From: Echinarachnius parma
Taxonomy: Eukaryota > Echinodermata > Echinoidea > Clypeasteroida > Echinarachniidae
Length of the DNA: 64,000 bases
Assembly: GCA_037951105.1 (NCBI GenBank)
Contig: JBAMJV010004331.1
Span: 1 to 64,000, forward strand
Direction of reading: 5' to 3'
Shown here: positions 4,981 through 53,250 of the stretch, in pieces
How the letters are laid out: each line of letters begins with the position of its first letter
Numbering within the stretch: position 1 is the stretch's first letter
The notes under the pieces: model-generated
What the model saw: the letters and a program-made list of their open reading frames with translations, nothing else
Told to the model about the DNA's origin: nothing
The model's database searches: none
Made by a program: the position numbers and the translations under genes

Positions 4981-5533
4981 TTAAAGGGATGGTTGAGTTC
5001 TGGTAAGGAGAGTACAGTTTTGGTGAAACTGAATTTTAGTAACCAAAACCTGCATCATTACATTACAAACTAATAGTTATAACTAGAAAGGAACACAAAA
5101 TTACAAATTACGTAGTAAAGATCATGTTATCATTAAAAAAAGTGCCGTTAAAACGTAAGAGGGCGCTCTCTAAACACTCATCGGTTTCAACCATTTTGAA
5201 TAAAATATTGTGCATGTGATACTTTGTTGAAATAGTGATTAGATAGAGAAATAACCAACAACTATTTAAATACCTATTTAGTAATTTTTTGAAAAGAGGA
5301 AGCATTTTTTGGAATTTTTAACGGCTGGGTCAAAATTCTCTAATAAACCTGGGGCCCCAGGTTTATTACAAATTGTTATATTTATGGATATTTCAGCCGT
5401 CTCTGAACCGATTTGTGATCAAACAAAGATGATTTTATTATGCTCTTTCAAATTTTACACTCAGTTTTTCATTACCTCACAAAAAAATAAGTAGTCTAGC
5501 GCCCTCTCTACCAAAACTCAACTATCCCTTTAA
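4981..5533. mobile_element. TTAA-target MITE, copy 1 (553 bases)
   Basis: It begins TTAAAGGGATGGTTGAGTTC and ends with the inverse, ..GAACTCAACTATCCCTTTAA after correction for one transition. Both ends sit on TTAA. It is non-coding. Relatives are at 13260-13927, 16547-16983, 20738-21172 with 24728-24780, 25562-25740, 27620-27790, and 54207-54334 with 57928-58225. TTAA targets are used by piggyBac and Kolobok; I cannot separate these without the autonomous partner. Confidence 0.85.
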
Positions 5534-6301: not shown

Positions 6302-6624
6302 TCAGCAAAAGGTGCTTATGCACACATGTATGCCTTTTTTTTTTACTAGCGTATACCACTGGGTCGGGACAGGCCGAATCTTCATCTCGGCCTTTTTCAT
6401 TGAGTACGAAACGGTATTCTTGAAATTGTGCCACATGATTCCATTCGGATCAGGATCCGAGGTGTAATAGCCTCCCTCGTAGTACAATCCGTTTAGGTTT
6501 GCGAAAGAGCAGGATTTGAACCACCAGCCACTGTAATATCTCTCTCCACAATTAGAACTCCAGTCGTCGTGATCAGCATCACGTGTCGAGAAGGAACTGC
6601 CATTGTGATAAGCCATGTAATCCC
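6302..6624 (-). pseudogene. Gene A exon 4 (C-terminal FReD subdomain, stop lost)
   Basis: The acceptor ..CAG precedes GGGATTACATGG at 6624. The translation has the [15 protein letters not shown] calcium-loop region, the cysteine pair around the GWWF motif, [11 protein letters not shown], and the terminal MKIRP motif. Where B and C stop with TGA, A reads TGG and runs on through a T-tract-encoded lysine string to a TGA at 6302. Confidence 0.85.
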
Positions 6625-7346
6625 CTGTTTGAAGAGATGGACATTTCGTGTCGTTCATTATGTTATTAAGTTATTTGAAATTTCGGGTAATTATTGAAAT
6701 CTGTAATGTGTTCAAGAGAATCCGCATTGTGTTAATACATCTAAACACCCATGATTCGATAATTCGTCATTGTTCGGTTTGAATTTTGAGTTATTTTTTT
6801 TCCCCTAGAGATTTGGGGTTAAATGAATTCAAATCAGATTGGCATTTACTCTGGCTACAGCGCCACGGAACCCCTGTTTTAAGCGATGGAAATGGTCGGT
6901 ATTTTTCAAGCCGTATAAACAAGGTTCTGAGTTATGTGTCTGAATAGTGTCTTTTGTAAACAGTTGCTATTTGAATGTAAGCAGCGTCGGAATATTCCAT
7001 TTTAAATTGTATAACATTTGCAACTATTACAACCTGTATTAGTTAACAAAGATAACTGAGAGACTGACATTAAGTTCTACCGGTACTTTCTTTACATTTA
7101 CGTGTGGAAAGTTCACATCAGCACCCTCTGCAACTTGCCACCTTCTAGCATGTAAATTGTCTAATCTTTATTAATTTACAGTTCATGTGAATGCATATAA
7201 TTATATTCAGCCTGTAACTAAATAGTAGAATACAACAATTTAAGCAATAATCATATTTCCTCGTGCAATAAATGTTGCCACAAACTTCAATAATGATTTA
7301 ACTCATAAACAAATTTACAAGGTGCAATTCGAATGTAATTACATAC

Positions 7347-8727: not shown

Positions 8728-9998
8728 TTAACCCTAACCAGGCCGGGTTATTTTGGCTATTATCTGGCAGGGGGGGGGGGGTGGGGGGGGGGGGGGGGGG
8801 ATTCCATCCCCACCCCTAGATCTCGGCCCCGGGGGGGGGGGGGTACTCACGTATACCGTAGAACACCATCGACAAGCACCCCCAAGCACCTATACGCATC
8901 TTGCTTTTAAAGACGTTTCCATGAGATTCATCTCCATTATTATCCTCATGAATATTCCTCACCATTATTTGCATTCTTGATTAAAGTTTCCCGTTTGGAC
9001 AGAGAGCGGGCGCTCTTTAAAAGCAAGATGCGTATAGGTGATTGGGGGTGCTTGACGATGGAGTTCTACGGTATTTGGATGTGCCGCTGGGAAGGGTGAC
9101 TTTTTCAAGAAAGATCCTTAGACATGGTCCCCTTTTCATCAAAACAAATCCTTAGACATGGGTCCCTTTTTTCATATTTCCCCTTTTTTATACAGGATTT
9201 TGGGATTTGCGGATGTGAAATTGCAAAATTGTTCAAGCTCGCTACGCTCGCTAACTTAAAACCACAAAATTTGTGTGAAATACACCCAAAACATGCGCCG
9301 CAGGCGAAAAAAAAAAATCCTTAGACATGGGTCCATTTTTCGCAAAAGGACCCTTAGATGTGGGTATGGGTTTGGAGTTCTCAGCCGCACACCCCGTCCG
9401 ACTATAATCTGAGTACCCCCCCCCCCCCCCCCCCCCCGGGGATCTCGGCCGTCGAACGCGCTGCCGCCACAAAATTTGACACGCGGATAGCTTGCAACAT
9501 ATTCTACAAGATTGCGTTGTTATTTTTTTGTAATAATCAACTTTGTATTAATTATGCAAATGTATGCAAAAATCCCCCTTTTGTCTATAAATCACTCAAT
9601 ATTGCTCAGTATATACTTATTTTGTTCCAAAATATTCTTTATGACTTAATTAACAGGTTTTGAACATTAGAAATTGCGGCAGCAAAAAGATTTCCTTATG
9701 TATTTCTGTGTTTTGGGAATTCCTAGGATTCCCTAGGATTTGTACACAAAATTCACAAAATTGAGCGATTTTCGGGCCGACATTCACATTCAAAAGGTCA
9801 CGTGACTTCGGAACTGTATACCCGGTCGTCGCAAATTTGGTCTCAGAAGTTGCGCAAGACTTAAATTTTTAAAAAAACATAAAGTTACACGGCAATACCT
9901 GCGCGCGTTGCGGAATTATCACGCAAAACGTCGAGGGAGGGGGGGGGGGGGGGTGGATTCCACCCCCCCCCCCCCCCCCCCAGCCTGGTTAGGGTTAA
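8728..9998. mobile_element. piggyBac-type MITE (TTAA target, CCCTAACCAGGC ends)
   Basis: The left end is TTAA-CCCTAACCAGGC and the right end GCCTGGTTAGGG-TTAA, perfect inverted termini on duplicated TTAA. CCC at the terminus after TTAA is usual for piggyBac. The interior is non-coding with several long G or C tracts and a nested 220-base MITE. It lies in gene A intron 1 and is absent from the same place in gene B (around 19440-19460). Confidence 0.85.
8854..9073. mobile_element. 220-base MITE with CCGTAGAACACC ends, copy 1
   Basis: TA-CCGTAGAACACCATCG at the left and its inverse at the right, with terminal repeats of about 55 bases. A second copy of the same length, in the opposite orientation, is at 16116-16335. 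TA flanks suggest a Tc1/mariner-class target. Confidence 0.85.
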
Positions 9999-10859: not shown

Positions 10860-11640
10860 TCTCTAGCTTAAATCATACACCGATCGATCAAGGTCATGAA
10901 GCTCGTCAATTGATACACATGATACGTATCTGTCTGTCTGCCTGGGATTCTGTCTGTCTGTATGTCAAGGGCACAATTATTAGTTGTAGCTAGGTCGCTG
11001 TCCACCAGAAGCGTAAATGAACAGAAACTTCTGGGGGCCAAACCAAATCCACATCATCACCGGGTACTAAGTATAATTATAGCATAATGGCATGGTTGCC
11101 AATTTCTAACAAGCGGTAAGTCTTGAAGGAGCGAAGCGACCAAGCCTGAAGCCTGAAAGCGACTGAGCGGAGGGTGTGGAAGTGGGGTGCCCCCCCCCCC
11201 CCACGAAAGGGAGCTGTTGCATTTTCGGACTTGAAACTGTGCCATCTGACGCATACGTTGGAAGGAAATTATGACTACACGACATGTACTATAATGTGGG
11301 TAAGTGCGTCTCGATTCTTCCGACCGGAAAAAGACCGTATGTTTGTTTCATGTACAAAAACAATTATGCATCCCCACAAATTATAATCGCAAAGTGGCAC
11401 TACAGTTCAAACAGTGCATCAGCTGCCATATTATGTATGATATAACTGTTACAACAACAGGAAGAAAGTATTCCAGACGTACACAAGAGGGAGCGAAGCG
11501 ACCGAGAGGGGGAAGGTTGGTGGGAGGGGGGGATTTTAGTTTGGTGACCGCCAGTGCAATGCATTTGCATTCGTGTTACTTGAAATTATGAAATCTGGTG
11601 CATACTTAGGAAGGAAATTTGACTTGACAGAAGTAAAAAA
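10860..11640. other. Upstream flank of gene A
   Basis: A CTGTCTGT-rich stretch (10928-10965) and the following 100 bases match 25320-25450 upstream of the gene B first exon. A C tract lies at 11191-11204. From 11419 the sequence repeats window bases 1-240. No gene seen. Confidence 0.6.
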
Positions 11641-12170
11641 TAACGTTATCTAGTCTAAAGAAATAAAAAAAATTCAATCACTGGTATGGCATTGGATTTA
11701 AGCCATGACAGTACGCAAGTGATGTCCATATATAATAAAATTCATCCATCACCGTCACCTGCAAGTGATAAGACACTTGCCATCTCACATTAACATAATT
11801 TCTACCGATCATTATCCCCGTGTAAATATTATTTAAGTGCAACTGATATAGCCCATAAATAATGGTAGATACCAATAACCTTTGTTTTATACCTCATCGA
11901 ACGTAAAAAAAAAATAACGTTATCTAGTCTAAAGAAATAAAAAAAATTCAATCACTGGTATGGCATTGGATTTAAGCCATGACAGTACGCAAGTGATGTC
12001 CATATATAATAAAATTCATCCATCACCGTCACCTGCAAGTGATAAGACACTTGCCATCTCACATTAACATAATTTCTACCGATCATTATCCCCGTGTAAA
12101 TATTATTTAAGTGCAACTGATATAGCCCATAAATAATGGTAGATACCAATAACCTTTGTTTTATACCTCA
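11641..12170. repeat. Tandem duplication, 274-base period, identical copies
   Basis: 11641-11896 and 11915-12170 appear identical over about 256 bases, separated by 18 bases of A-rich sequence. Both give the same spurious 65-codon minus ORF. Diverged relatives are at 240-540 and 12400-12500. Confidence 0.9.
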
Positions 12171-12179
12171 CGAACATTT

Positions 12180-15454: not shown

Positions 15455-15723
15455 TCACTGGCTCTGGACAGGCCGAATCTTCATCTCTGCCTTTTTCAAG
15501 GAGTAACCACTGGTATTCTCGAAATAGTGCCATAAGATTCCATTACTATAAGGATTCGCGGTGTAATAGCCTCCCTCGTAGTACAATCCGTTAAGGTTTG
15601 AGTAAAGACAGCCTTTGAACCACCAGCCACCATAATACTTCTCTGCACAATGAGAACTGTGGGCGTCATGATCAGCATCACGTGTCGAGAAGGAACTACC
15701 GTTGTGATAAGTCATGGAATCCC
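15455..15723 (-). CDS. Gene B exon 4 (C-terminal FReD)
   Basis: Acceptor AAAACAG before 15723, phase 1, 269 bases including the TGA stop. It holds the calcium loop STRDADHD, the cysteine pair flanking GGWWF, and an NTS sequon near the end. Confidence 0.9.
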
Positions 15724-18700
15724 CTGTTTTAAGAGATGGGAAGTGTCGGTAATTTCGATAAGTTATTTGAAATTCCTCAGATGGTGGAAATCTGTAATGT
15801 GTTCAAGATAATTCGAATTGTGTTCATAAATACAAACAAAATCCATGATCCGATAATTCGTCATTGTTCAGTTTGAATTTTAATGTAACAATTTTCCTAA
15901 AGATTTGGGGGTAAATGAATTTAAATCAGATTAGCATTCGACTTGTTTTCGCAATATCATTATTATGCAATTTATTATTGATAAACCCTACATTAACATT
16001 GGTGAAAACAAACCAAACGGCAATTGTGTTGGTGTTGATGTTGATAATCTCTTTAGATTCAAAGGCGCAATGGCACATTTTTTCAAGGGGACTGAGGTAT
16101 TTTGCCTGAATACCATACCGTAGAACACCATCGTCAAGCACCCCCAAGCACCAATATGCATCTTGCTTTTAAAGAGCGCCCGCTCTCTGTCCAAACGGGA
16201 AACTTTAATCAAGAATGCAAATAATGGTGAGGAATATTCATGAGGATAATAATGGAGGTGAATCTCATGGAAACGTCTTTAAAAGCAAGATGCGTATAGG
16301 TGCTTGGGGGTGCTTGACGATGGTGTTCTACGGTATTCCCTATTTTCACCCGACAAGCTAAAACAAAAAATATATTAATATTTAACTGCCCGAAAATTAT
16401 TCACTTTGCTGGGAATTCCTCAATACGATATTATTTTGCCCGACTTTGACATGCTTTTGCCCGAATAATTCAAAGCGGTTTTCAAAACTCCAGGGGGCTA
16501 CAGCCCACAGCCCCCGCCTTCTATGTCTATATGTCTTTATTGAATGTTAAAGGGGAAGTTCAGTTTTCGTAGAGAGGGCGCTGCACAACACACATTTTTC
16601 GTGAGGTAATGTCGAATTGAAAGAACATGCAATTTTAATGCCAGAATAAACTTTATTTGGTCAAAATCGGTTCAGAAATGGCTAAATATTCAAAAGCGGT
16701 ATTTTAATAGTTGTTGATGATCTCTCTACTTAATCATTATTTTAGCAAAACATCACATGCATAATTTTGTATGAATATGGTTGAAACCAATGTCTTATTT
16801 ATAGAGAGCGCCCTCTTGTGTTTTAATGGCGCCTTTTTAATGATAACAGGCTTTTTACTTAGTCGTTTGTATTTTTGTATACCTTTCGAGCATGATGGGG
16901 TTATAAATATTAGTTTGTAATGTTATTGTTCAGGTTTTGGTTACTAGAGTTCAGCCTTTATCAAAACTGTACTACCCCTTTAATTTCAGGATTTTGTTTT
17001 CAATTCTGATTGAACTGGGTTGAAAGAATCAGCTCAGACAGAACCGTGTAAACTAGATTTTGAGTCATCTTTCTGAATAATGCCCTCTTTTGTTCACATC
17101 TGCTATTTAAATGTAAGCAGTTGTCTTTTAAATTGATATACCATCTTAAACTGTATACAATAAGTAACTACTAATTAACAAAGATAACGTATACGTTTTA
17201 GCGACTGAAATTAAAATCTACCGGTATTTTCTTTCATGTACGTGTCGAAGTTCACATCAGCAACAATTTACCACCATGTTAATTATTATCCAACCTCTAT
17301 TAATTTACAGTTCATATGAATGCATATAGTCAAGATGTACCTGAATGCAACAAAAATTCTTGCCACAAGCTTCAGTAATGGTTCTTCTCATATTTATATA
17401 ATTTAAATACTTACCTGCCGTTCCACTAAAAGTCCCCAGCGTAAGCTTGTAGTAGAATTCCTCCTCTGCAGTAAGAAACCAATCGTACTCTGCGTACTGC
17501 TTCACCCCGTCCCAGCCTTCCAACTCGATCCGAAGAGCGGAGCGTTTTTGAGCTGAGAGAAGTCGGATCTTATCATTCCCCAACCAATGCTCCTCGTCGA
17601 CCCTACCGAAGCCCTCCTTGTAGGCAGACCAGGTCCGATGGAAATCCACCTGCCCTCCTTCCCTTCTCTGGAATACCTGTATAGAGAAGAAGAGGTCCGA
17701 ACACATGGTGCATAATAGGATAACGTGAAGGCAAATATTTAAACCAAAGGGAGAAGTTCACGCATACAGTCATGACAATTAGGCGTGATCATCCAGGAAA
17801 ATGGGTCCACCACCGAAAACGTCAAACATGGAATTAGTATGGCCATGGGTGCAGTCTAAAGACGGAACAAATGATTGAGATCATCACAAATATAGAACAA
17901 CAAAAATTAAACCATTCAAAAACTTTTCCTATATCAATCCTTCTGTATATGGAGAAGAAACTTGATGTTCAAAATGGAATACGAGAACAGATTTCTTACA
18001 TTTGAATTGGCATGTTTTAGCGAAATCCTCGTTATTGTCAGAAAGTTACTATTTAGAGATTGAGTTACAACTGTCACTAATTGCTAACACCCGCCATATA
18101 ACGTCCATTTAACTTGAATTTTCAAACAATACACAGTGGACATATGCGATAACAATATACATTGCACTAATATACATTGCACGAACCATTCATCAAATTA
18201 TGTCAACAAAGTTACTAGTTAATAACCCCTTTCATTCGATAATTAACAAATTAAATATAAAGCCTACTTATTGTCGTGAATATACCACATTGGAATTACA
18301 TTGTGTCAGTGATATCTCTATTGAATCATTCCCAAACATCACATTGACAATGTTTGAAAATATGGGGTTCATATTAAGAAGGCGCCCTCGCCTGTTAAAA
18401 GCTAATTCTTAATGTAAACAGCTTTCTAACTGAGTCGTATATCTTTTATTAGTAGTTTTATAAGTGATAACGCACAATTAGTTAATAATTTCCACATCTA
18501 AGTTTGCCCAGATCTGTAGTATCATTTTGAAGGTTCCCTAAAATACAAATGCATGTTGTCTTCAACTTATCTGTATTAGTGTACACATCAATTATTTGTT
18601 AACTATTTGATCTAAAGATATGTTATGTTTATTTTCAAACATTTTAGCAGTTATTTTCTTCGGTTTGCTAGGCCCCACCTCTGTAAATAAAAAAATAAAA

Positions 18701-25249: not shown

Positions 25250-25560
25250 ATGTTTAATTATACACCGATCAATCAAGATTGCCAACTGATATTCTCATGA
25301 CATGAATAATTTTCATATATCTAGGGTATCTGTCTGTTTGTCTGTCTGTTTGTCAAGGGCGCAACTGTTAGTCGTAGTAAGTCGCTGTCCACCAGCAGCG
25401 TAATGAGCAAAAACTATTTGGGGGATAAACCAAATCCACATTACGACAGATACCCCCCCCCCCCTTTTTACACATACGATAGGGAGCTTTGCATGCTTGG
25501 ACTTGAAACTGCGCAGTATGGTGCATTGGAAGGAAATTCTGACTATACGACATGTACTTT
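25250..25560. other. Upstream flank of gene B first exon
   Basis: Matches 10860-11290 (CTGTCTGT stretch, GTCGCTGTCCACCAG). It contains a C run at 25453-25464. No gene. Confidence 0.6.
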
Positions 25561-25561
25561 A

Positions 25562-25740
25562 AAGGGATAGTTGAGTATTGGTCAAACTTAACTTTAGTAA
25601 CCAAAACCTGCACGATTACGATACAAACTAATAGTTATAACTTCACCATGCTCGAAAAGTATACACAATTACAAACGACAAAGTAAAACCCCTGTTATCA
25701 TTCAAAAAGAGCCGTTACAACTCGAAGTGTCAAATTAACT
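25562..25740. mobile_element. TTAA MITE, truncated copy 5
   Basis: Starts TTTAAAGGGATAGTTGAGTA and breaks off before its far end, joining a segment with GCGCGAAGC..GTTGTAGGTCCTAATACGGG that recurs at 27790-27850 and, inverted, at 33340-33410. Confidence 0.75.
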
Positions 25741-25967
25741 CGGCGCGAAGCACTAGCGTTGTAGGTCCTAATACGGGACTGGATATAGTGCAGTGTGCGG
25801 TAAAATACGGGACTGTAGTGCAGTCACTGTGTGCGGTAATACTATACAGTAGTACGTGTATAATATTATCAATACACTTGATACAACACAGTGGACACTA
25901 ATAAAGAAGGCCGGAGACATTTAACAAACAATATAAATATATACTTGAATTTGAGAAAATGCAATAC

Positions 25968-27615: not shown

Positions 27616-27860
27616 TATTTAAAGATAATGGTGAGTATTGGTCAAACTTAACTTTAGTAACCAAAACCTGCACGATTACGGTACAAACTAATAGTTATTA
27701 CCTCACCATGCTCGAAAAGTATGCACAATTACAAACGACAAAGTAAAAACTCTGTTATCATTCAAAAATAGCCGTTACAACTCAAGTGTCAAATTTACTC
27801 TAGCGCGAAGCGATAGCGTTCTAGGTCCTAATACGGGACTGCAGTGCGCGGTACGGTAAT
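27616..27860. repeat. Left arm of the inverted flank around the foldback element
   Basis: Begins in TTAA-MITE family sequence (..AATGGTGAGTATTGGTCAAA..) and ends GCGTTCTAGGTCCTAATACG. Its inverse, in the order expected for a palindrome, is at 33340-33620. Confidence 0.75.
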
Positions 27861-28912
27861 GCATGTTCATGTGTAACCACAATCCCCGTTCGTTCGTCTT
27901 TCTAACACACGGATAGAAGTCCATGAGTTGCATAATATCACTGATTTTTGCGGAATGGAGGGGAAAATCATAATTTTAATCCACCCTATAGTTGGATCAC
28001 ATATTAGAGAGTGAATTGGTGGTAACCCAGCTAGCCACCTGATGTCGTGCCAACGTTGGGCCGATGTCATTTTCGTTGTAAGGGGACGTTGGGCCAACAT
28101 GCGACATGCGACGTCACCGAGACGTTAAAATGTCCGCCAGCCCAACATCAGCTCGGCGTCTTTATTTAATGCTGGCCCAACGTCATTTAGCGATTTCGGC
28201 CCAACATCAATTATTGACAATGGCCCAATGTCAGTTCTAACGTAGGCCCAACATCGATTCCTGACGTTGAGAGAACATCAAGTTTTGACGTCGGCCCGAC
28301 GTTAAAATGTCCGCCAGCCTAACGTTGTCCCAACATCATTTTGTGATGTCGGGCAAATGTCAATTTCCGACAATGGCCCAACGCCGAATCCTGACATAGG
28401 ACAGATATCAAATTATGATGTGGGCTCGACGTTAAAATGTCCGCCAGCCCAACATCGTCACTACGTCATTTTGTGATATTGGCATAACGTCAATTTCCAA
28501 CAATGGCCCAACATCAACTCATGACATTGGACCAACATAACATTATGATGTCGGCTCGAGGTTAAAATGTCCGCTAGCCCAACATTGTCACGACATCATT
28601 CTGTGATGTTGGTCCAACGTCAATTTCCGCCAATGGCCCAATATCAAATCCTGACGTTGGGCCAACATCAAATTCTGACGTTGGCCCGACATTAAAATGT
28701 CCGCCAGCCTGACATTAGTCCAACGTTATTTTTTATTGTTGGCCCAACATCAAATCTTGACGTTGGTCCAACATAAAATCTTGACGTTCGCCCGACGTTT
28801 GAATGTCCGCTAACCCAACATTGGCCCAACGTCATTTTCTGATGCTGGACCAACATCAAAATTTGACAATGGCCCAATGTCAAATGGCTAACGTAGGACC
28901 AACATCAAACAC

Positions 28913-29453
28913 GTAAAAAGAAATTGGAAAACATGCATAGATTCCACGTCCGATCCATGCATTTTGTTTAGCCTTTACACACATTCATTCATAAATCATA
29001 ATTCTATAAATATCCTATTCCTATACCTATTGCCTACTCCTAAACCTATCATCCTATCGTCCTACAAACATAGGTCGCAATCGGTATACTATATATACAC
29101 CTCTTCTTAGCATGTATGTTTTGTAATAGTTAGTATTTGTAGAGCGTTGAATTTGAAATAATCCACCTTCAAATCATATCCATAACACTATTTAAGGTGT
29201 TTTTTATATTCTTATATATCCTTCTAAATTATATACAGCAGCAAGGACATGACAAAAGTATATTTTTTTATATAAATAATTCCAAAAATCGAAAATTTTC
29301 ATTTCACTTACGATCGCTTATAATCGATCATGAATTTCCCGATAGCAATACTTCTTTTTTGTTTTACTTTTGAATTACTAATGTTTGTAATCGATTAAAC
29401 GAAATTCAATGCAGTATAGATTCTCAAAGCAAGTTAACAAAAATATAAGTACC
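28913..29453. other. AT-rich unique spacer inside the foldback element
   Basis: No repeat units and no ORF of note. It ends just before a second terminus-like CCCAGCTAGCTAACTGACGT at 29454. Confidence 0.7.
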
Positions 29454-31140
29454 CAGCTAGCTAACTGACGTCGGACCGGTGTCGGCAGGTCGTCGGCAAG
29501 ATCGCGGTCGGCAAACAGACGTCGCGCCAACATTACGCCAACGTCGAATTTAATTTGGAGGTTTTGGAAATGAAATAAGTCGGAAAATGGTTGTAGTTGA
29601 ATGTCGTGCCGATGTCATTAAGTTGACGAAAAAAATACGTCTCAAATAAAACGTCGCGCTAAAATCGCACCAATGCCGAAACTGGTACCAATTTAAGAGC
29701 TTGATAGAGGGTTGTAATATTAATGTTGGGCCGATGTCAATAAACCAACATGAATATGACATCTCAAATATGACGTTGGGCCAATGTTGTACCGATGTCG
29801 GAATATATCATTTTAAGAGGTCGGTAAATGGTTGAATGTGGAATTGATGTCGGACGGATGTTATTAATTGGACATCAATATGACATCACAAATATGACGT
29901 CAAGCCGATATCGCGCCGATGTCAGAATTGGCAGCAATGACACGAGTCGGCAAATAGTCATGAAATCGATGTTCAGCCGATGTCAATATTCTGACATGAA
30001 TATGTCATCTCCAATATGACGTCGGGATAATTTCGCGCCGATGTTGGAACTGGTAGCAATTAAAGAGGTCGGTAAATGGTTGTAACATTGATGTCGGACC
30101 AATGAGTTTTATTGGACATCCATATGACATCTCAATTATGACGCCAAAGCGATATCCTGCCAATGTCATAAATGGCACCAATGAAACTAATCATTAAATA
30201 GTCATTAAATGGATGTTGATATCAATAATTCGACATGAATATGACATCTCAAATATAAAATCGGCCTTCTATCGCCCCGATGCTGGTAGTAATTTAAGAG
30301 GTCGGTAAAATGCTGTGAAATTGATGTCGGGTCACAGTTATTAATTAGACATAAATATGACATCCAAAATATGACTTTGGGCCTATACCGCACAGATGTC
30401 GGAACTTTACGAAATTTTAAAGGTGGGTAAAAGGTTGTGAAATAGATGTCGGGCGGATGTTATTACTCCTACATAAATATGACATCTCTACTATGACGTC
30501 AGTCCGATATTGTGATGATGATGTATCTGGTAGCAATTTAAGAGGTCGGTACATGGTTGTGAAATTGATGTCTGGCCAATGTTATTAATTGGACCTCAAT
30601 ATGACATCTCTATATGATGACGCCAAAGCGATATCCTGCCGATGTCAGAACTGACAGCAATTAAACAAGTCGGCAAATGGTCATTAAACTGATGTTGTGC
30701 CGATGTCATTAATCCGACATGAATAAGAGATCTCAAATATGACGTCGGGCTAATATCGCGCAGATGTTGGAACTGGTAGCAAATTAAGAGGTCAGTCAAA
30801 GATTGCAAAATTGATGTTGGGCTTATGTTATTAAATATACATAAATATGACAGCTCAAATATGACGTTGGGTCAATGTTGTACCGATGTCAGACTGGCGA
30901 CCATTTGCCGGCTTGTTTCATTGCTGCCAGTTCTGACATCGGCAGGATATCACTATGGCGTCATCATTGAGATGTCATATTCATGTCTAATCATTGACTT
31001 CGGCACAACATCAATTAAATGACCATTTGCCGAGTTGTTTCATTGCTGCAAGTTCTTACATCAGCCTGACACATTCATGTCTAATTAATAACATCGGACC
31101 GATATCAATTTTACTACCATTTACCGACCTCCTTAATTGC
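29454..31140. repeat. Central ~120-130-base tandem array of the foldback element
   Basis: Units contain AAGAGGTCGGTAAATGGTTG, a GATGTCGG..CGATGT block and GACAT(C/G)AATATGACATCTC. They are clearly diverged from each other, unlike the right-arm array. From about 30895 the orientation reverses. Confidence 0.8.
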
Positions 31141-31430
31141 TATCTTTTCCGACATGTTGGGCCAACGTCAAGATTTGATGTTGGGCCAACAATAAAAAAT
31201 AACGTTGGGCTAATGTCGGGACAACGTCAGAATTTGATGTTGGCCCAACGTCAGGATTTGATATTAGGCCATTGGCGGAAATTGACATTGGGCCAACATC
31301 ACAGAATGATGTTGTGACAATGTTGGGCTAGTGGACATTTTAACCTCGTGCCCATATCATAATGTTATGTTGGTCCAACGTCATGAGTTGATGTTGGGCC
31401 ATTGTCAGAAATTGACGTATCACAAAATGA

Positions 31431-33240
31431 CGTGGTTACGATGTTGGGCTGGCGGACATTTTGACGTCGAGCCCATATCAGAATTTCATATCTGTCCTAT
31501 GTCAGGATTTGGTGTTGGGCCATTGTCGGAAATTGACATTTACCCGACATCACAAAATGATGTTGGGACAATGTTGGGCTAGCGGACATTTTAACCTCGC
31601 GCCCACATCATAATGTTATGTTGGTCCAATGTCATGAGTTGATGTTGGGCCATTGTCAGAAATTGACGTATCACAAAATGACGTGGTGACGATGTTGGGC
31701 TGGCGGACATTTTAACGTCGAGCCCACATCAGAATTTGATATATGTCCTATGTCAGGATTTGGTGTTTGACCATTGTCGAAAATTGACATTTGCCCGACA
31801 TCACAAAATGATGTTGGGACAATGTTGGGCTAGCGGACATTTTAACCTCGCGCCCACATCATAATGTTATGTTGGTCCAATGTCATGAGTTGATGTTGGG
31901 CCATTGTCAGAAATTGACGTATCACAAAATGACGTGGTGACGATGTTGGGCTGGCGGACATTTTAACGTCGAGCCCACATCAGAATTTGATATATGTCCT
32001 ATGTCAGGACTTGGTGTTTGACCATTGTCGAAAATTGACATTTGCCCGACATCACAAAATGATGTTGGGACAATGTTAGTCTAGCGGACATTTTAACCTC
32101 GCGCCCACATCATAATGTTATGTTGGTCCAATGTCATGAGTTGATGTTGGGCCATTGTCAGAAATTGACGTATCACAAAATGACGTGGTGACGATGTTGG
32201 GCTGGCGGACATTTTAACGTCGAGCCCACATCAGAATTTGATATCTGTCCTATGTCAGGATTTGGTGTTGGGCCATTGTCGGAAATTGACATTTACCCGA
32301 CATCACAAAATGATGTTGGGACAATGTTGGGCTAGCGGACATTTTAACCTCGCGCCCACATCATAATGTTATGTTGGTCCAATGTCATGAGTTGATGTTG
32401 GGCCATTGTCAGAAATTGACGTATCACAAAATGACGTGGTGACGATGTTGGGCTGGCGGACATTTTAACGTCGAGCCCACATCAGAATTTGATATATGTC
32501 CTATGTCAGGATTTGGTGTTTGACCATTGTCGAAAATTGACATTTGCCCGACATCACAAAATGATGTTGGGACAATGTTAGTCTAGCGGACATTTTAACC
32601 TCGCGCCCACATCATAATGTTATGTTGGTCCAATGTCATGAGTTGATGTTGGGCCATTGTCAGAAATTGACGTATCACAAAATGACGTGGTGACGATGTT
32701 GGGCTGGCGGACATTTTAACGTCGAGCCCACATCAGAATTTGATATCTGTCCTATGTCAGGATTTGGTGTTGGGCCATTGTCGGAAATTGATATTTGCCC
32801 AACATCACAAAATGATGTTGGGACAATGTTAGTCTAGCGAACATTTTAACCTCGCGCCCACATCATAATGTTATGTTGGTCCAATGTCATGAGTTGATGT
32901 TGGGCCATTGTCAGAAATTGACGTATCACAAAATGACGTGGTGACGATGTTGCGCTGGCGGACATTTTAACGTCGAGCCCACATCAGAATTTGATATCTG
33001 TCCTATGTCAGGATTTGGTGTTGGGCCATTGTCGGAAATTGATATTTGCCCAACATCACAAAATGATGTTGGGACAATGTTAGGCTAGCGGACATTTTAA
33101 CCTCGCGCCCACATCATAATGTTATGTTGGTCCAATGTCATGAGTTGATGTTGGGCCATTGTCAGAAATTGACGTATCACAAAATGACGTGGTTACGATG
33201 TTGGGCTGGCGGACATTTTAACCTCGAGCCAACCGCGATA
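31431..33240. repeat. 251-base higher-order repeat, about 7-8 near-identical copies
   Basis: The anchor ACGTGGTGACGATGTTGGGC recurs at about 31431, 31681, 31932, 32182, 32433, 32684, 32935 and 33187. Each unit has two half-repeats ending in GGCGGACATTTTAACGTCGA and AGCGGACATTTTAACCTCGC. Few differences separate copies. Confidence 0.9.
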
Positions 33241-33339
33241 AGCCGACATCCGGCCAACAACTTATGACATCGGCACGACGTCAGGTGGCTAGCTGGGAAG
33301 TACCGTATCATACGTATAGTTTTAAGCACAATTAGCGTG

Positions 33340-33620
33340 CACAAACATATCTATTTTCAGTCCTGTATTAGGAGCACCTAGAACGTTAGGGCCTCGCGCT
33401 AGCGTTCTCTAAAAAGTGATACCCGGGCGTCAATCTTTTTATATCATATTTTGAAAGCAAATTTCACAACAATGAAAGCATTTGAAAGGGAATTATTATT
33501 ATTTCCCATGTTTTTTTCGATGATCTTTCATTTGGAATTGAAATCAACCAAATCCGTTACAATTCATTTTGGGGGGGCACTTTGGAAATTACCAATACTC
33601 ACCATTACCTTAAATTGCCT
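33340..33620. repeat. Right arm of the inverted flank around the foldback element
   Basis: Inverse of 27616-27860: CCTGTATTAGGAGCACCTAG..GCGCTAGCGTTCT and then ACCAATACTCACCATTACCT. Confidence 0.75.
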
Positions 33621-34385: not shown

Positions 34386-34670
34386 TACAGTTCATTATTC
34401 CGAAGGTTCGTTATTCCGAAGGTTCAGTTATTCCGAAGGTTCGTTATTCCGAAGGTTCGCTATTCCTAAAATGAAATCGGGTTCGTTATTCCGAAGGTTC
34501 GTTAATCCGAAAATAAAATCGGGTTCGTTATTCCGATGGTTCGTTATTCCGAAGGTTCGTTATTCCGAAGGTCCGTTGATCCGAAAATAAAATCGGGTTC
34601 GTTATTCCGAAGGTTCGTTATTCCGAAGGTTCGTTGATCCGGAAATGAAATAGGGTTCGTTAATCCGAAA
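34386..34670 (+). repeat. Minisatellite GGTTCGTTATTCCGAA, forward array
   Basis: 16-base units, with variants carrying AAAATGAAATC or AAAATAAAATC spacers. The inverse array is at 35420-35815. Confidence 0.95.
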
Positions 34671-34889
34671 ATTAAATAAATAAGATTTAGAAAAGAATTT
34701 GATTTCTTTTAAGCAATGTTGCCTTTAAAAAATGATTCTGAGCAGTGTGGACTCAAGGGGATCAATCTTACTCTAATTGCCGTGGCTGTATGGGGGTGGG
34801 GGAGTTAGATTTTGCTGCTTGATATCAGTCCAGAATATCTTAATTCTAACATTGTATTTGTCTAAATTGTATGTATTTCATCATAAATA

Positions 34890-35115
34890 GCACCTAAGGG
34901 CAGGGGCGGATCTAGCTTTTTGCTAAGGGGAGGGGGGGGGGGTTGACCCAATGACGATGCGGAGCATCGTCCACGAGCCGCGAATCGGCGATTTTTATTT
35001 GCTATTTTGAACCCACGTAGTGATGTCTTATTGCTAAGGGGGGGGGGGGGGGGGGTGACAGAATGACGATGGGGAGGGTGGGGGGGGGGTGTCCCCCCTC
35101 CCCCGTGAGGGAGCA
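34890..35115. mobile_element. Possible hAT-like end plus G-rich tracts
   Basis: CAGGGGCGGATCTAGCTTTT at 34902 is the kind of terminus seen on many hAT elements, followed by G tracts. I could not find the partner end or a target duplication. Confidence 0.35.
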
Positions 35116-35249
35116 TTTGCATTTTTTAAATTGAAACTGTGCAATCTGAGTTGTCTTGTCTTACTCTCTTTTCCAATCGAATTAGATAAAAGCTATGATT
35201 TAAATTGATTTGGGAGGGGGCCATGACACCCCCACCCCACCAGTACGCC

Positions 35250-35370
<121 letters not shown>

Positions 35371-35419
35371 ACGCACACACACATATACATACACACACAC
35401 ACAATTCGACGGCAATCCC

Positions 35420-35815
35420 TATTTCATTTTCGGATTAACGAACCCTAATTCATTTTCGGACTAACAAACCTTCGGAATAACGAACCCGATTTCATTTTAG
35501 GAATAGCGAACCTTCGGAATAGCGAACCTTCGGAATAACGAACCTTCGGAATAACGAACCTTCGAAATAACGAACCCGATTTCATTTTAGGAATAGCGAA
35601 CCTTCGGAATAAAGAACCTTCGGAATAAAGAACCTTCGGAATAGCGAACCCGATTTCATTTTAGGAATAGCGAACCTTCGAAATAACGAACCTTCGGAAT
35701 AACGAACCTTCGGAATAATGCAACAAATGTTCGGATTAACGAACCCTATTTCATTTTCGGATTAACGAACACTCAAGTATAGGAAATTTGCGGGTTCGGA
35801 ATAACGAACCGCACC
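35420..35815 (-). repeat. Minisatellite GGTTCGTTATTCCGAA, inverse array
   Basis: Units read TTCGGAATAACGAACC on the plus strand with ATTTCATTTTAGGAATAGCG variants. Together with 34386-34670 it makes a mirrored arrangement. Confidence 0.95.
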
Positions 35816-36405: not shown

Positions 36406-37140
36406 GATACACAAACAGACATCTCATAATTACTGACACATAATAAACAACATGAAACGAATTCCCATGTTAAATGGCGTGCTTGGTTTATTTTATTTAA
36501 TCGAATTGCCCCTTCACTCATATGTAATAATGTAAACATTAAATGACGTGCATGTTTTATTCAACAAGATCGTAACGCCCGTAAACATCTACGTAAAATG
36601 TACGTACCATTCACATTAATTCGGCTTGTAGATCTCTAATGACTCTTTATGATGCGGAATTTAACAGTGGATTGAAATTGGACAAACATGTACAATGCTA
36701 CATAAAAGTATAAGATCGGGTAAATGCATACAACTGATTCAAATTTGATATCTACATGTATATAATTATAGTTATAGTGATTGGTGATCAAATAAATAAT
36801 CGATCCAATGAAACAACTTACCAAGTAAACTATATTGAATTATTGTTAGAGAAATAACAAAGGCAAAAATAATTCGAAAAGAAATAGATAATTGATGAGA
36901 ATATTCACAAAATAATCAAAAGGCAACAAAATTAATTCGTGTACACCTAGCTATAGGGTCTTCATCAACTGTTACAATGATTACGCAAATTAGCCACAAC
37001 AAATTAAATTTATTTTGGTGCTTAAATTGCGTTGTTATTACATTTAATGTAAAGTGCTGTTTTGAAGGAAATAAAGAGTAATGTAATATGTTTGTAATTA
37101 ATTCAAACATATAGGGAAACTGACCAAGAATATATTGTGA
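36406..37140. other. AT-rich intergenic stretch
   Basis: 37020-37080 resembles 12500-12600 ('ATGTAAAATATTG', 'AATAAAGAGTA'). No gene seen. Confidence 0.4.
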
Positions 37141-37163
37141 TTAAAAGTGAGCAAAGAAAAATG

Positions 37164-37236
37164 GGATTCCAACGGGATTCGAACCCGAGACCTCCGGATT
37201 GCTAGACCGGTGCTCTACCGACTGAGCTATAGAAAA
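37164..37236 (-). tRNA. tRNA-Ala(AGC)-like gene, copy 1
   Basis: A 73-base cloverleaf on the minus strand: TAGCTCAGTCGGTAGAGC D-arm, CCGGT/TCCGG anticodon stem with loop CTAGCAA (AGC), and TTCGAAT T-loop with 4 of 5 T-stem pairs. The acceptor stem pairs at only 5 of 7 positions, so a functional alanine tRNA is doubtful. A TTTTT run follows at once, a pol III stop. Confidence 0.55.
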
Positions 37237-37454
37237 CCCTACGACGGCGTTCTTCCCAGAAACCCCTTAATTCAACTTTGCTCAAGTAGTCAGAAGCTTT
37301 ATAAACCTGACATAAACCCGAAGCGGATTAAAATCAACTTGGGGATAAATGCGAGGGATCGCCGAAGCGATACAGCTTTTTATAATAATTAATTCAAACA
37401 TATAGGGAAACTGACCAAGAATATATTGTGATTAAAAGTGAGCAAAGAAAAATG

Positions 37455-37527
37455 GGATTCCAACGGGATTCGAACCCGAGACCTCCGGATTTCTAGACCG
37501 GTGCTCTACCGACTGAGCTATAGAAAA
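37455..37527 (-). tRNA. tRNA-like gene, copy 2, anticodon AGA
   Basis: Identical to copy 1 except the anticodon loop reads CTAGAAA, which would change AGC (Ala) to AGA (Ser). Confidence 0.5.
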
Positions 37528-37745
37528 CCCTACGACGGCGTTCTTCCCAGAAACCCCTTAATTCAACTTTGCTCAAGTAGTCAGAAGCTTTATAAACCTG
37601 ACATAAACCCGAAGCGGATTAAAATCAACTTGGGGATAAATGCGAGGGATCGCCGAAGCGATACAGCTTTTTATAATAATTAATTCAAACATATAGGGAA
37701 ACTGACCAAGAATATATTGTGATTAAAAGTGAGCAATGAAAAATG

Positions 37746-37818
37746 GGATTCCAACGGGATTCGAACCCGAGACCTCCGGATTGCTAGACCGGTGCTCTAC
37801 CGACTGAGCTATAGAAAA
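37746..37818 (-). tRNA. tRNA-Ala(AGC)-like gene, copy 3
   Basis: Same as copy 1, followed by the TTTTT stop. It lies just before the inversion point. Confidence 0.55.
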
Positions 37819-38048
37819 CCCTACGACGGCGTTCTTCCCAGAAACCGCTTTTAATCACAATATATTCTTGGTCAGTTTCCCTATATGTTTGAATTAATTA
37901 TTATAAAAAGCTGTATTGCTTCGGCGATCCCTCGCATTTACCCCAAGTTGATTTTAATCCGCTTCGGGTTTATGTCAGGTTTATAAAGCTTCTGACTACT
38001 TGAGCAAAGTTGAATTAAGGGGTTTCTGGGAAGAACGCCGTCGTAGGG

Positions 38049-38121
38049 TTTTCTATAGCTCAGTCGGTAGAGCACCGGTCTAGCAATCCGGAGGTCTCGG
38101 GTTCGAATCGTGTTGGAATCC
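38049..38121 (+). tRNA. tRNA-Ala(AGC)-like gene, copy 4 (inverted)
   Basis: Same D-arm and anticodon as copy 1. The T-stem is further damaged (CGTGT instead of CCCGT). A TTTTT run follows. Confidence 0.5.
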
Positions 38122-38269
38122 CATTTTTCTTTGCTCACTTTTAATCGTAATATGTTTGTATTTTGTTTTATGTCAACATGCAAGTTAAACTGCAGGGCGC
38201 CTTTGTAAAGCAGTTTTGCATAACTGAACAGGCCTACCCTGTAGTATACAATAAATAAAACAAATACAA

Positions 38270-39270: not shown

Positions 39271-39675
39271 TTATTTACGGATTTGAACAAAATACCAACG
39301 TTCATATCGTACCCAGTCCCAGGTCCCCTCGCGAGCTGGCTGCCTGAGGCCTCTGCAGCGCAGACGTACGGGGGCCAACTCCGGTGACTGATGCACGGAC
39401 CAAACAAGGGCAACAAGCTCATCTTTCCGGCCAGAAACTTTCAACTTTCGTTTTCTCAGAAAGTCTCTCAGTCGAGGGACGGTCCACAGACGAATGTCGT
39501 CTATCGATGTAGCCTGGTCATCATCCATGTCGATGTCAAAATGCCGAAATTTAAGAGAAAACTTATCGTGATCACAAACGTAAACGTAACAAAACACAAG
39601 GAGAATGCACGCACGCGCGGTAAATTCTGCATAGAGCTCTGGGGGGGTATTCTGAAAGCTCATTTTACTTTTCAT
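39271..39675 (-). CDS. SAP-domain ORF (putative, partial)
   Basis: 134 codons on the minus strand. The middle has WTVPRLRDFLRKRKLKVSG followed by RKDELVALVW, a good match to the SAP helix-turn-helix DNA-binding motif (leading hydrophobics, R/K-rich turn, G-x-K-x-E-L-V). Single SAP domains of this kind often begin longer proteins of invertebrate transposons, some with SWIM or YqaJ nuclease domains. No such partner is visible nearby, so this may be a first exon or a relic. The start could be the internal MDDDQATS methionine. Confidence 0.5.
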   Translation of the reverse strand: MKSKMSFQNTPPELYAEFTARACILLVFCYVYVCDHDKFSLKFRHFDIDMDDDQATSIDDIRLWTVPRLRDFLRKRKLKVSGRKDELVALVWSVHQSPELAPVRLRCRGLRQPAREGTWDWVRYERWYFVQIRK

Positions 39676-49192: not shown

Positions 49193-49803
49193 TACACGGT
49201 AAGATCTTTAAATTTAAAAAAAATAGTTCTCACAGCTATTATTTCATTATTTCATATCGACTATAATTTTTAAATAGTTTTAACTAACCATAAACAAAAT
49301 TAAATTTGTAAAACAATGTGTCCCCCAGGTGTACCCAACTTGGAGATAAGCTGATGTTCAATCGTCATACTAGCCTGAATTTGCCGAGTTTAAGTAAGTA
49401 CGTTCTGATCCTTACTTTTGATTAAATTAATACTAACAAAGGGAACATTTGTTCCAAAAAAGCTATCGACTATAATTTTTAAATGTTTTTTCATTAATTT
49501 AAATGCTCAAGATTCAGTATTGTACCCAAACCTCTGGGTGTACCCAACTTTCTCTTAAGCTCGATTTGAATCTTCATTCTGTTTGAAGGAACATCGCTGC
49601 GCGACCGCTAGTGATCTGTCTTGTAATTCTACAGTCTTTGCTATTACGTGTCCGTCTTGTACGCCAACCAACCCGAGGAGTGCGCGCGCGCGGTAGCGCA
49701 GCCGCGAGAGCGCTACCGCGCCGCCGCGTCGCGCCGCCCGAGCTAGCCCGGCGCGGCCCTGCCCCGGACGGCGGGCGATATCGGAGCTAGAGCTCCAGCT
49801 AGC
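49193..49803. other. Intergenic stretch with a GC-rich island
   Basis: 49676-49790 is strongly GC-rich (GCGCGCGCGGTAGCGCAGCC..) in an AT-rich region and contains a palindrome GGTAGCGC..GCGCTACC. Two related 'GTGTACCCAACTT' stretches are at 49328 and 49539. No gene seen. Confidence 0.55.
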
Positions 49804-50400
49804 TTAAAGGGTGACTAAATTAAAAAATTAAAAAACGCTTTGGTTGATCTATGATAATGAATACATCACATATCTGTTGCCTATTTGATGTACATTTTTG
49901 TCATATTTTTTATATTAATTTTTCTATTTATTTTTTCTACCTGCTCAGTTTCACCCCTGAAAAACCCTGCCAGAAGCTATTGTCTTGACTTCTCTGACCT
50001 CACAAAACCATTCCATCAGTCAGCTAGATGAACAAAAGACATTGGTACGTCAACTGACCACCAGTTTTAAGCTGTTTACAATAGTATTGTAAGCTTTATA
50101 CAATGTCCACTCACCATGAAAAGAAGGTTTCAATGAAATACGGTACTCAGTGGGTGAGAACATATCTTTTGTAAATGTTTATCTAGCTGATCGGTGGTTG
50201 AATGGTATTGTGATGTCAGAGAAGTCAATTGTGTAGGTTTTTTTTAGGGGTGGATCTTAGCAGGTAGAATAAAAATAATAGAAAAAATAATATAAAAAAT
50301 ATGACAGAAATGTACATGAAATAGTCAACAGATATGTGATGTATTCATTATCATAGATCAACCAAAGCGTTTTTATTTTTTTAATTTAGTCACCCTTTAA
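49804..50400. mobile_element. TTAA MITE with long terminal inverted repeats (597 bases)
   Basis: TTAAAGGGTGACTAAATTAA at the left and TTAATTTAGTCACCCTTTAA-like at the right. The inverse match continues for at least 150 bases and weakly across the whole element. TTAA on both sides. Confidence 0.85.
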
Positions 50401-53250
50401 GTCGGTTTTTTTCGTCCGATAAGAGTCAAAATGACTCCAAAAGGGTCTAGTTGGCTTCGGTAAGGGTAAGGGTTGGGGTAAGGGAGTATTTTTGTTATTT
50501 TTTTATTATTTTTTTTGTATTATTATTATTTTTTTTTAATTCTTTTATTTTGACATAAAATAGATAAAAAATGCTTAAATATTATTGTTGTGCACTTAAG
50601 AATTTATTTTTGGGCCATTCTTTGAAAAGTGAAACTTTTTTGGAAAAAATGAAGTTTGTTTTTTCAGTAGTTTTATTTCATTATTGGAAAGATCAGTGTC
50701 CAAAGGTTCATGAAATATATATATATTTTTTTATTTATAAAATTTCTTAGAAAAATTCATAAATTTTCATATTTCAATATTCAAATAAAAATCATAACTC
50801 AGGAAATAATCAAGCTAGCCCAGTCCTTTTATTCTCCTGTACATGATGATACCAACTTTGTGACAATTGAACTTCATTTTACTATCTAAACTTAATATTT
50901 GTAAAATTCATATTTCCATTCACATTGTACATGTCACACACGTGACCACCCCAAAATGTCACACACGTGACCCAGACATCCCCACATAATAACGTGCATT
51001 AAAAAACAACCGTTTGAGATAATTTTAATCTTTCACCATTTTCTTACTTACAGATATATATCAGTTGTCTGATACTAATATGAACATTTTAGCTTTTCAT
51101 ATTTCACAGGATTTCCAAAATGAAATTGAGTTAAATTTTTTTTCTTCAAAAGTGCTCCCGTGCGAAGTCACACACGTGACCGATGCCATTTGACCTCTGT
51201 CCTTGGGCAACGTAATCCTAATATAATCTTTTGTGTTACACATGAAAGACTTCAACATATGCAAGTCATATATGAAGTTCACATCACCATACCTCCTATA
51301 CTTTCTAAAATATAAGCATCTTATTTCAGAATTTTTCCTATTTTGGGTCACACACGTGACCAAGAATGGCCCTTTTGTTGCTAAAATGTCATATTGATCC
51401 CTGTGACCTTTACACTTTGAGCGCACGACTCAAGAGTCAAGGACAACAAAGTTACTGCAAATACAAGTCACTTTGAAGGGACTTGGATAATTTTTGGCTT
51501 CTTCGTTAAAAAAAAAAAAAAATTTTGCTGGAACCTTGGAAAAATATTCGGTAAGCCTTTATAAGCCCCCAGTATGAATTTTAGGTGAATTAAAGAATTT
51601 TCCGCGAAAATATTCAACATTTTCAAAAATTGATAATACCCTGTCTCAGCCTTTAAATATTTTGTTTGAGAATGCAGAAGTCACTAAATGAGACATATAG
51701 AAATGACTAGCAACTCATGTTTAACGGAAATATATAACATTTATTGCATAATACAAGTAATTGGCTGAGAAAATAACTTATCGTATAACACATACATTTG
51801 CCAGATATAAAATCACGCAAATGGAAACCTGTGACCTGTGACCTTTGATCTTTGACCAAATGACCTTAAAATCACAGCCCTTCATTTATCCCCCTATATA
51901 CATGAATATACCAAGTTTGGTGACGATTGGTCATTTGGTTCGTGAGATATGGCAAAAAGAAGATTTTCCCGCCAATTTTAACGATTTTCTCAAGTGGATA
52001 ATACAGAAAACGGCCATAACTTTTTTTTTAAATGATCGGAATTGGCTCAAATTCTCAGGTGATGTTTACTATGATGTACTCTTAATTTTAATTATTTTTT
52101 TCAAAATCGGACTATCCCATAATTTTTTATTTTGCAGCAAACTAAATAGGAGTATGTCTTCCTAGCACATTTTCAGCCACTTGCATTTTCTTGAAAATTC
52201 GATGTCCAGATTTCCAAAAAATTACCATTTTGACCATGGTCAATCAGGGTTTGGGAGGGATGCTTACGTGCATCATATTTCACTAACCTGACAAAAATAA
52301 CCTCTGCAGGAAGTATGCTAACTCGAAAAACCTACCTCCGTGTTTTAGGTTACAAAACGGTTGGTTCTGGTTTCGTAACCACGAATTAGGTTTAGGGTTA
52401 GGGCCTATACTAGTAGTCTATATTAAAAGACCTTACATTGTAGATTCATTTAGCGAAGGACACATTTTCTGTGCCTCCGAAGGCACCCCCACAAAAAAAT
52501 GCATACTTCCAGAACAAAAATTAACTACAGTTATTGGCCAAGAAATATATCAATTTAAAAGTATATATATTATAATTAATTTAGGCCAAGCTCACGTAAT
52601 GCTCATGGTTAAACTACCATTTTCGGGCCAAATTAGGTCATAATATGACCCGTGTAGATGGTCTAAAAATCATCATTTACACCTACTATATTATGGTAGA
52701 TGTAAATGATTATTTTTAGGCCACTACACGGGTGAGGACCTTGTTTTACTGCTTTTCTTCTTTCTTTTGTTGCTTGTCAGGTGCCCGGCATCATGAAAAT
52801 CCAAGGCCCCCCGGTGCAGGATTTATCATAAAATTACTTCAGTAAACTAAGGCTGGTTGTACAGACTATCACCTGATGAAATATTATGAAATTATAATTC
52901 GGTACAGAAAAAATTACCTACATTATAATACGTATTGAACGATATAAATCAAGGTGTATTTGCAAGCCAGTTAAGGAATTATAAAAGTTCACACTAACGA
53001 ACTGAGATTAAAAAAAAATAATCCATATTGCAAGATACATGGTACGACGACACTGGATTACAGTATGTCACGTTTCATAACCGTTCCCATTGTAATATCA
53101 AATGAAATTATATTCTGTCAGTATGTAACTGTGACGTATTTGTAATACAGATTACGAAATTAGTAATATGCTCTGTAATATGCTGTGCCATGAAGGTAAT
53201 TTATCTCAGTATCATACTGTGGCGATCTATTAATGGGGTGGAATATTTCA
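50401..53250. other. Gene-free stretch with short motif repeats
   Basis: GTCACACACGTGACC recurs at about 50934, 50960, 51167 and 51347. 51830-51875 has a TGACCTTTGA-like repeat. A hairpin lies at 52648-52733. The ORFs of about 110 codons (51097-51426 minus, 51845-52165 plus) have no recognisable domain. Confidence 0.5.
52648..52733. repeat. 86-base hairpin palindrome
   Basis: ACCCGTGTAG..TCTAAAAATC and CATTTACACCTAC pair with GTAGATGTAAATG..TTTTTAGG..CTACACGGGT. Confidence 0.85.

Follow-up and report, generated by a model that had tools for sequence, protein, structure and literature searches.

A probable rearranged composite of foldback-type transposon arms in Echinarachnius parma

The first 64,000 nucleotides of contig JBAMJV010004331.1 of Echinarachnius parma (GenBank assembly GCA_037951105.1), referred to below as the window, contain two inverted termini, at 28026 and 33297, that enclose long, tandemly repeated arms. 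The question raised by this locus is whether it represents a single foldback element, as had been suggested by a sequence-only reading, or the product of several events. The analysis revealed that it is not one clean foldback. The locus shows foldback-type architecture, in that its long inverted arms are tandemly repeated, a spacer is present and a long open reading frame (ORF) is absent. It is probably a rearranged composite, in which members of an A/C-type and a B-type subfamily of a single family of non-autonomous, cut-and-paste DNA transposons, all with foldback arms, have been combined, and which was inserted into another palindromic repeat. Its sharp termini, a probable target-site duplication and inverted blocks found on both sides speak for a DNA transposon. 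No ORF of at least 110 codons is present in the composite, and thus the element is non-autonomous; no transposase was found among the frames, which were listed without a homology scan, the longest stop-to-stop frame being 108 codons.

Termini and the palindromic core

The 17-mer CCCAGCTAGCCACCTGA occurs exactly at 28026 on the forward strand and at 33281-33297 on the reverse strand, in agreement with the inverted ends claimed by the sequence-only reading. The second terminus-like sequence that it had reported at 29454 is also present, but begins two bases away, at 29452 on the forward strand, where it opens arm B and differs from the 17-mer by two mismatches. When up to 4 substitutions were allowed, no further sites were found in the 64-kb window, so the termini do not recur within it. 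The terminus of arm A (CCCAGCTAGCCACCTGATGTCGTGCC; 28026-28051, forward strand) is matched over 26 bp, with one mismatch, by the inverted terminus of arm C (33272-33297, reverse strand). The B and C termini are identical at 49 of 60 positions in an alignment that contains one 10-base and one 1-base gap, and the A and B termini agree at 19 of 22. The scores of the A/C, B/C and A/B end matches were each reached by 0 of 1000 dinucleotide shuffles. All three termini are closely similar in their first 15 bp, and positions 16-32 of each are a version of a palindromic core that differs from the arm consensus at 4, 5 and 4 positions in A, B and C, respectively. As the termini share ancestry, the presence of the core in them counts as one observation, not three. 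A terminal-core pattern derived from the B and C termini matched three flank sites within 4 mismatches, all on one strand.

The same core, a 17-bp palindrome (GACGTTGGSCCAACGTC) mostly placed at 24-bp spacing, is the building block of the arms. It forms a hierarchy, in which the 17-bp core lies within a 24-bp unit, and the 24-bp units are assembled into 130-bp units in the left arm and into a 251-bp dimer in the right arm. Non-overlapping sites were counted against the arm consensus, with mismatches taken out of 17. At up to 4, 5 and 6 mismatches, the composite holds 69, 88 and 119 cores, respectively, distributed over arm A (24/26/30), arm B (6/12/19), a partial inverted copy of arm B designated B' (1/1/1) and arm C (38/49/69), while the spacer has 0 at each threshold. 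The corresponding counts in the 58,728 bp of flanking DNA are 1, 5 and 21, the five sites at up to 5 mismatches having been found among 58,696 positions on both strands. By these counts, arm B is clearly more diverged. Taken with the position of the core in the termini, this repeat structure suggests that the arms may have been formed by tandem amplification of sequence located inside the terminal repeat. The two CpG columns of the core show CG, TG and CA states, a CpG decay that might point to methylation, but the copies are related by descent and do not give independent counts; hence, no conclusion on methylation was drawn.

Arms, spacer and internal junction

Left arm A (28026-28905, forward strand) consists of 24-bp palindromic units, mostly in steps of 24, 24, 24, 24 and 34 bp, which make up 130 bp. 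Right arm C (31151-33297, reverse strand) is built from about eight copies of the 251-bp dimer, an A3-type plus an A2-type unit, and ends in an innermost unit of A5/A6 type. Except for this innermost part, each 251-bp copy comprises one 130-bp and one 121-bp unit. The description of both arms as short tandem repeats in opposite orientation was borne out by the 130-bp spacing in A and the 8 × 251 bp in C. Units 2-8 of C are mutually 95.2-99.6% alike, and the innermost unit 1 is 89-91% like them.

The two arms correspond to each other unit by unit. The best local alignment between A (28026-28910) and the reverse complement of C (31150-33297) has 561 of 650 positions identical and covers about 28245-28909 of A. 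The inverted A/C alignment (28026-28905 and 31155-33297) scored 737.5, compared with a maximum of 33 in shuffles (n = 200) and 49.5 on the same strand. The innermost part of C (31211-31418) shows 94% complementarity to the stretch 28487-28694. At the level of single units, A2 is 92-95% like the seven 130-bp units of C, A3 is 94-97% like the eight 121-bp units, and the innermost unit C16 is matched at 95% by A5 and at 89% by A6. Units within A are only 72-84% alike (the 19-bp fragment A4 gave no comparison), and the paired A and C units run in the same inward order. We infer from these similarities that A and C derive from a common arm, after which C alone would have amplified the A2-A3 dimer. 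Arm A also folds strongly as single-stranded DNA (z score of -9.92), with 0 of 20 shuffles being as stable.

The middle of the composite is occupied by an AT-rich spacer and by a second type of arm, B, with its own terminus. The spacer (28906-29451) lacks palindromic cores and has a G–C content of 0.289, versus 0.361 in the flanks, which agrees with the AT-rich spacer noticed earlier; it is a candidate middle domain or a candidate piece of target DNA. Arm B (29452-30897, forward strand) begins with the terminus CCCAGCTAGCTAACTGACGTCG and is composed of units of about 122 bp, with cores mostly at 50/72- or 61-bp steps. It is followed by B' (30898-31150, reverse strand), in which 182 of 222 aligned positions are identical to arm B, with gaps; no terminus was found in B' by the 17-mer scan with up to 4 substitutions. 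B' meets C at CCGACAT (31149-31155), a piece of the core that fits both arm types. The diverged arm B with its short inverted partner, the core in each terminus, the correspondence of A and C units and the inverted blocks in the flanks all go beyond the sequence-only reading.

A match to MIR2600 (RF03843) at 28521-28623 within arm A reached 36.2 bits, against a gathering score of 98, and was rejected as probably a by-product of the palindromic units rather than a microRNA gene. Weaker matches to the same family were found in another A unit and in one stretch of C, and on both strands of A. Among the literature matches listed, papers naming miR2600 are mostly on plants.

Flanks and the history of the composite

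The composite has inverted termini, and one of its two possible end pairs is flanked by AAGTA. The motif lies directly before 29452 (29447-29451) and directly after 33297 (33298-33302), as the left and right copies of a putative 5-bp target-site duplication, and counting in the two C with which the terminus begins extends the match to 7 letters. At the other end pair, the flank before 28026 (GGTGGTAA) and the flank after 33297 (AAGTACCG) have only AA in common. No target-site duplication of 8-10 bp was found at either end pair (28026/33297 or 29452/33297). A random pair of 5-mers from the window matches with a probability of 0.0016, or about 0.003 for two flank pairs.

Outside the composite, two short inverted blocks in the flanks suggest that it may have been inserted into another palindromic repeat. 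The left half of this putative outer repeat lies at 27619-27841 (forward strand) and the right half at 33358-33614 (reverse strand). The blocks follow in matching order: 27797-27841 and 33358-33405 are identical at 39 of 48 positions (3 gaps), and 27619-27642 and 33591-33614 at 22 of 24. The stretch between the two blocks gave no alignment, and the joined flanks found no uninterrupted copy in the 64-kb window. In the region 27619-33614, which takes in the composite and the outer blocks, the left flank of the composite recurs as a 91% copy at 25553-25781, with partial matches at 5016, 13295, 16815, 21110 and 58058.

If the locus is a composite, the chances are about even that the last mobile unit was a chimera spanning 29452-33297, with AAGTA as its duplication, which came to lie beside an older solo arm A. 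This would explain both the AAGTA and the relatedness of the B and C ends. An A-C element carrying a damaged B-type insertion is another possible, though less probable, form of the composite, and the chimera is favoured over it by a little; the remaining probability goes to other rearrangements. A special case of a composite, put forward by the sequence-only reading, is that one foldback is truly nested in another. In that case, A, the spacer and C would make up a foldback of 28026-33297, and a B-type foldback (29452 to about 31150) would sit in its loop, the right end of the insert having been lost together with the innermost C sequence. The corresponding arms and their orientation fit this proposal, as the A and C units pair in inverted order, and a deletion at the B'/C junction would leave C without a clear partner of A7 and without a spacer of its own, as observed. 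However, the flanks of 28026 and 33297 have just AA in common, the AAGTA at 29452/33297 would have to be a chance match (about 0.0016 per pair), and B' has no terminus, so that the flanks, and the absence of a right end from the inner element, are left without an explanation. On balance, true nesting is considered rather unlikely.

The array in C, with units up to 99.6% alike, resembles a satellite, and no second locus is known, as would fit a local satellite array with an inversion rather than a transposon. Such an array would not account for the sharp inverted termini at three places, each with its core, for the AAGTA or for the inverted flank blocks, and is regarded as very improbable. A Helitron-type reading was dropped, since inverted termini are present.

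Several points weigh against the reading of the locus as a rearranged transposon composite and against its chimeric form. The chimera requires that an inverted arm A lies alongside by chance or through local transposition. AAGTA is only 5 bp long, two flank pairs were tried, and the length was not fixed beforehand, and the evidence for the outer repeat consists of just two blocks, 48 and 24 bp long. Clear partners in C are lacking for units A1 and A7 (best matches of 84% and 81%, respectively), and in the top-scoring long A/C alignment (86%) the inner A units are paired one position further outward than in the unit-by-unit matches. Folding is weak for one C unit (z score of -2.28; 4 of 200 shuffles), and not notable for part of B (z score of -1.29; 11 of 100) or for the spacer (z score of -1.38; 11 of 100). 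No part of the composite was seen again elsewhere in the 64-kb window, and exact-pattern scans with the termini and arm motifs returned 0 loci in viral and prokaryotic collections, which are a poor place for animal repeats. As to the growth of the arms, the reverse direction is possible, as sequence of the array could have spread into the terminus. Finally, binding of a transposase to the core is a prediction only.

Known foldback systems, a possible mechanism and the surrounding window

Sea-urchin TU and Drosophila FB elements have the same general arm architecture as the composite, when compared by description only. The target-site duplications of TU and FB are 8-9 bp long, and none such is found in the composite. 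Of the TU/FB architecture that had been proposed, the foldback-type build thus stands, while membership in the Mutator/FB/TU group is unsupported, with neither an 8-10 bp duplication nor a transposase ORF. It is improbable that the locus is a Mutator/FB/TU-type foldback proper: it does have long inverted arms of short tandem repeats around a spacer, and most foldbacks seem to be of Mutator type, with exceptions, according to the authors of the Tetris study (PMC4079207), but the end pairs lack the expected duplication and no long ORF is present.

Tetris of Drosophila virilis is similar to the composite in that tandem repeats lie inside its long inverted repeats, the middle domain varies, an ORF is absent, rearranged copies occur and the internal repeats expand towards satellite DNA; it differs in its duplications of 8-10 bp, and the likeness is one of description alone (PMC4079207). 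Galileo, a member of the P superfamily, likewise has foldback-like arms, and within a single copy the two arms are reported to contain unequal numbers of tandem repeats; in 12 copies, described as chimeric, the arms are unlike each other and the flanks do not match (PMC3573991). The tandem repeats in Galileo arms hold extra binding sites for the THAP domain of the transposase (PMC3688188). In contrast to the dense palindromic array of the composite, two extra THAP sites per arm are reported for Galileo, and its duplications are 7 bp long (PMC3573991, PMC3688188). In the Tm1 Mutator/Foldback elements of root-knot nematodes, as in the locus described here, the inverted repeats are composite and contain a short motif (about 14 bp in Tm1) in varying copy number, while their terminal motifs are described as asymmetric and 45 of 53 complete elements have duplications of 8-10 bp, mostly 9 bp (PMC3169594). 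In a search of the foldback literature on sea urchins, bivalves, echinoderms and other marine animals, covering titles and the starts of abstracts, the unit was undescribed among the matches listed, and a search for the letters of the unit and terminus gave no transposon title among the matches listed.

As a mechanism for the composite, it is proposed, by analogy with Galileo, that a transposase supplied in trans would recognize the core, so that amplified cores would provide many binding sites per arm and raise local binding. The arms would be lengthened through unequal exchange or through replication slippage, and ectopic recombination at the shared core would have joined the B and C halves, the repeats doubling as recombination joints. 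A more specific, and unlikely, proposal is that the composite represents a foldback family that does not belong to Mutator, makes target-site duplications of 5 bp and has a two-fold symmetric 17-bp terminal recognition site amplified to about a hundred per element. If such a family exists, its arms would recruit transposase multivalently, its repeats would act as joints through which arms are shuffled between subfamilies, and the fast amplification of the 251-bp dimer would be the seed of a new satellite. Should other copies confirm the picture, this one locus would present a possible course of arm growth, from the terminal core through the 24-bp and 130-bp units to the 251-bp dimer, the latter in one arm only, and the B'/C junction within the core would be a concrete case of arm exchange between subfamilies. 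This bears on the reason for the length and repetitiveness of foldback arms (recruitment of transposase versus mere slippage) and on how transposons may seed satellites; similar points have already been made for Galileo and Tetris.

Other repeats are found in the window. A second foldback-like structure at 34390-35810 has opposed GGTTCGTTATTCCGAA arrays (34393-34678 and 35420-35720; 79%), separated by a G-rich and (CA)n spacer. Further palindromic repeats are located at 49803-50401 and 59461-59849, and at 8853-9074 together with 16115-16336, the last two forming an inverted pair that is 97% identical. A 274-bp tandem duplication at 11635-12175 is 99% identical. At 37095-38156, there are 2.6 tandem copies (99%) of a 291-bp unit with a transfer RNA gene, and a further copy (97-98%) lies in inverted orientation; ARAGORN, run with bacterial settings, identified Ala(agc) three times and Ser(aga) once in this region.

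Eight ORFs of the window were scanned for domains, of which three matched reverse transcriptase, two Fibrinogen_C (15458-15802 and 17308-17757) and one a SAP domain, and two had no match. Fibrinogen-like ORF fragments are found at 6302-6670, 15455-15802, 17305-17757 and 58699-59046, the first and the last of which are alike by eye, and the DNA around such fragments is duplicated (16676-18037 and 57927-59314; 83%). The ORF with the SAP domain lies at 39274-39675 (E-value, 1.9e-8).

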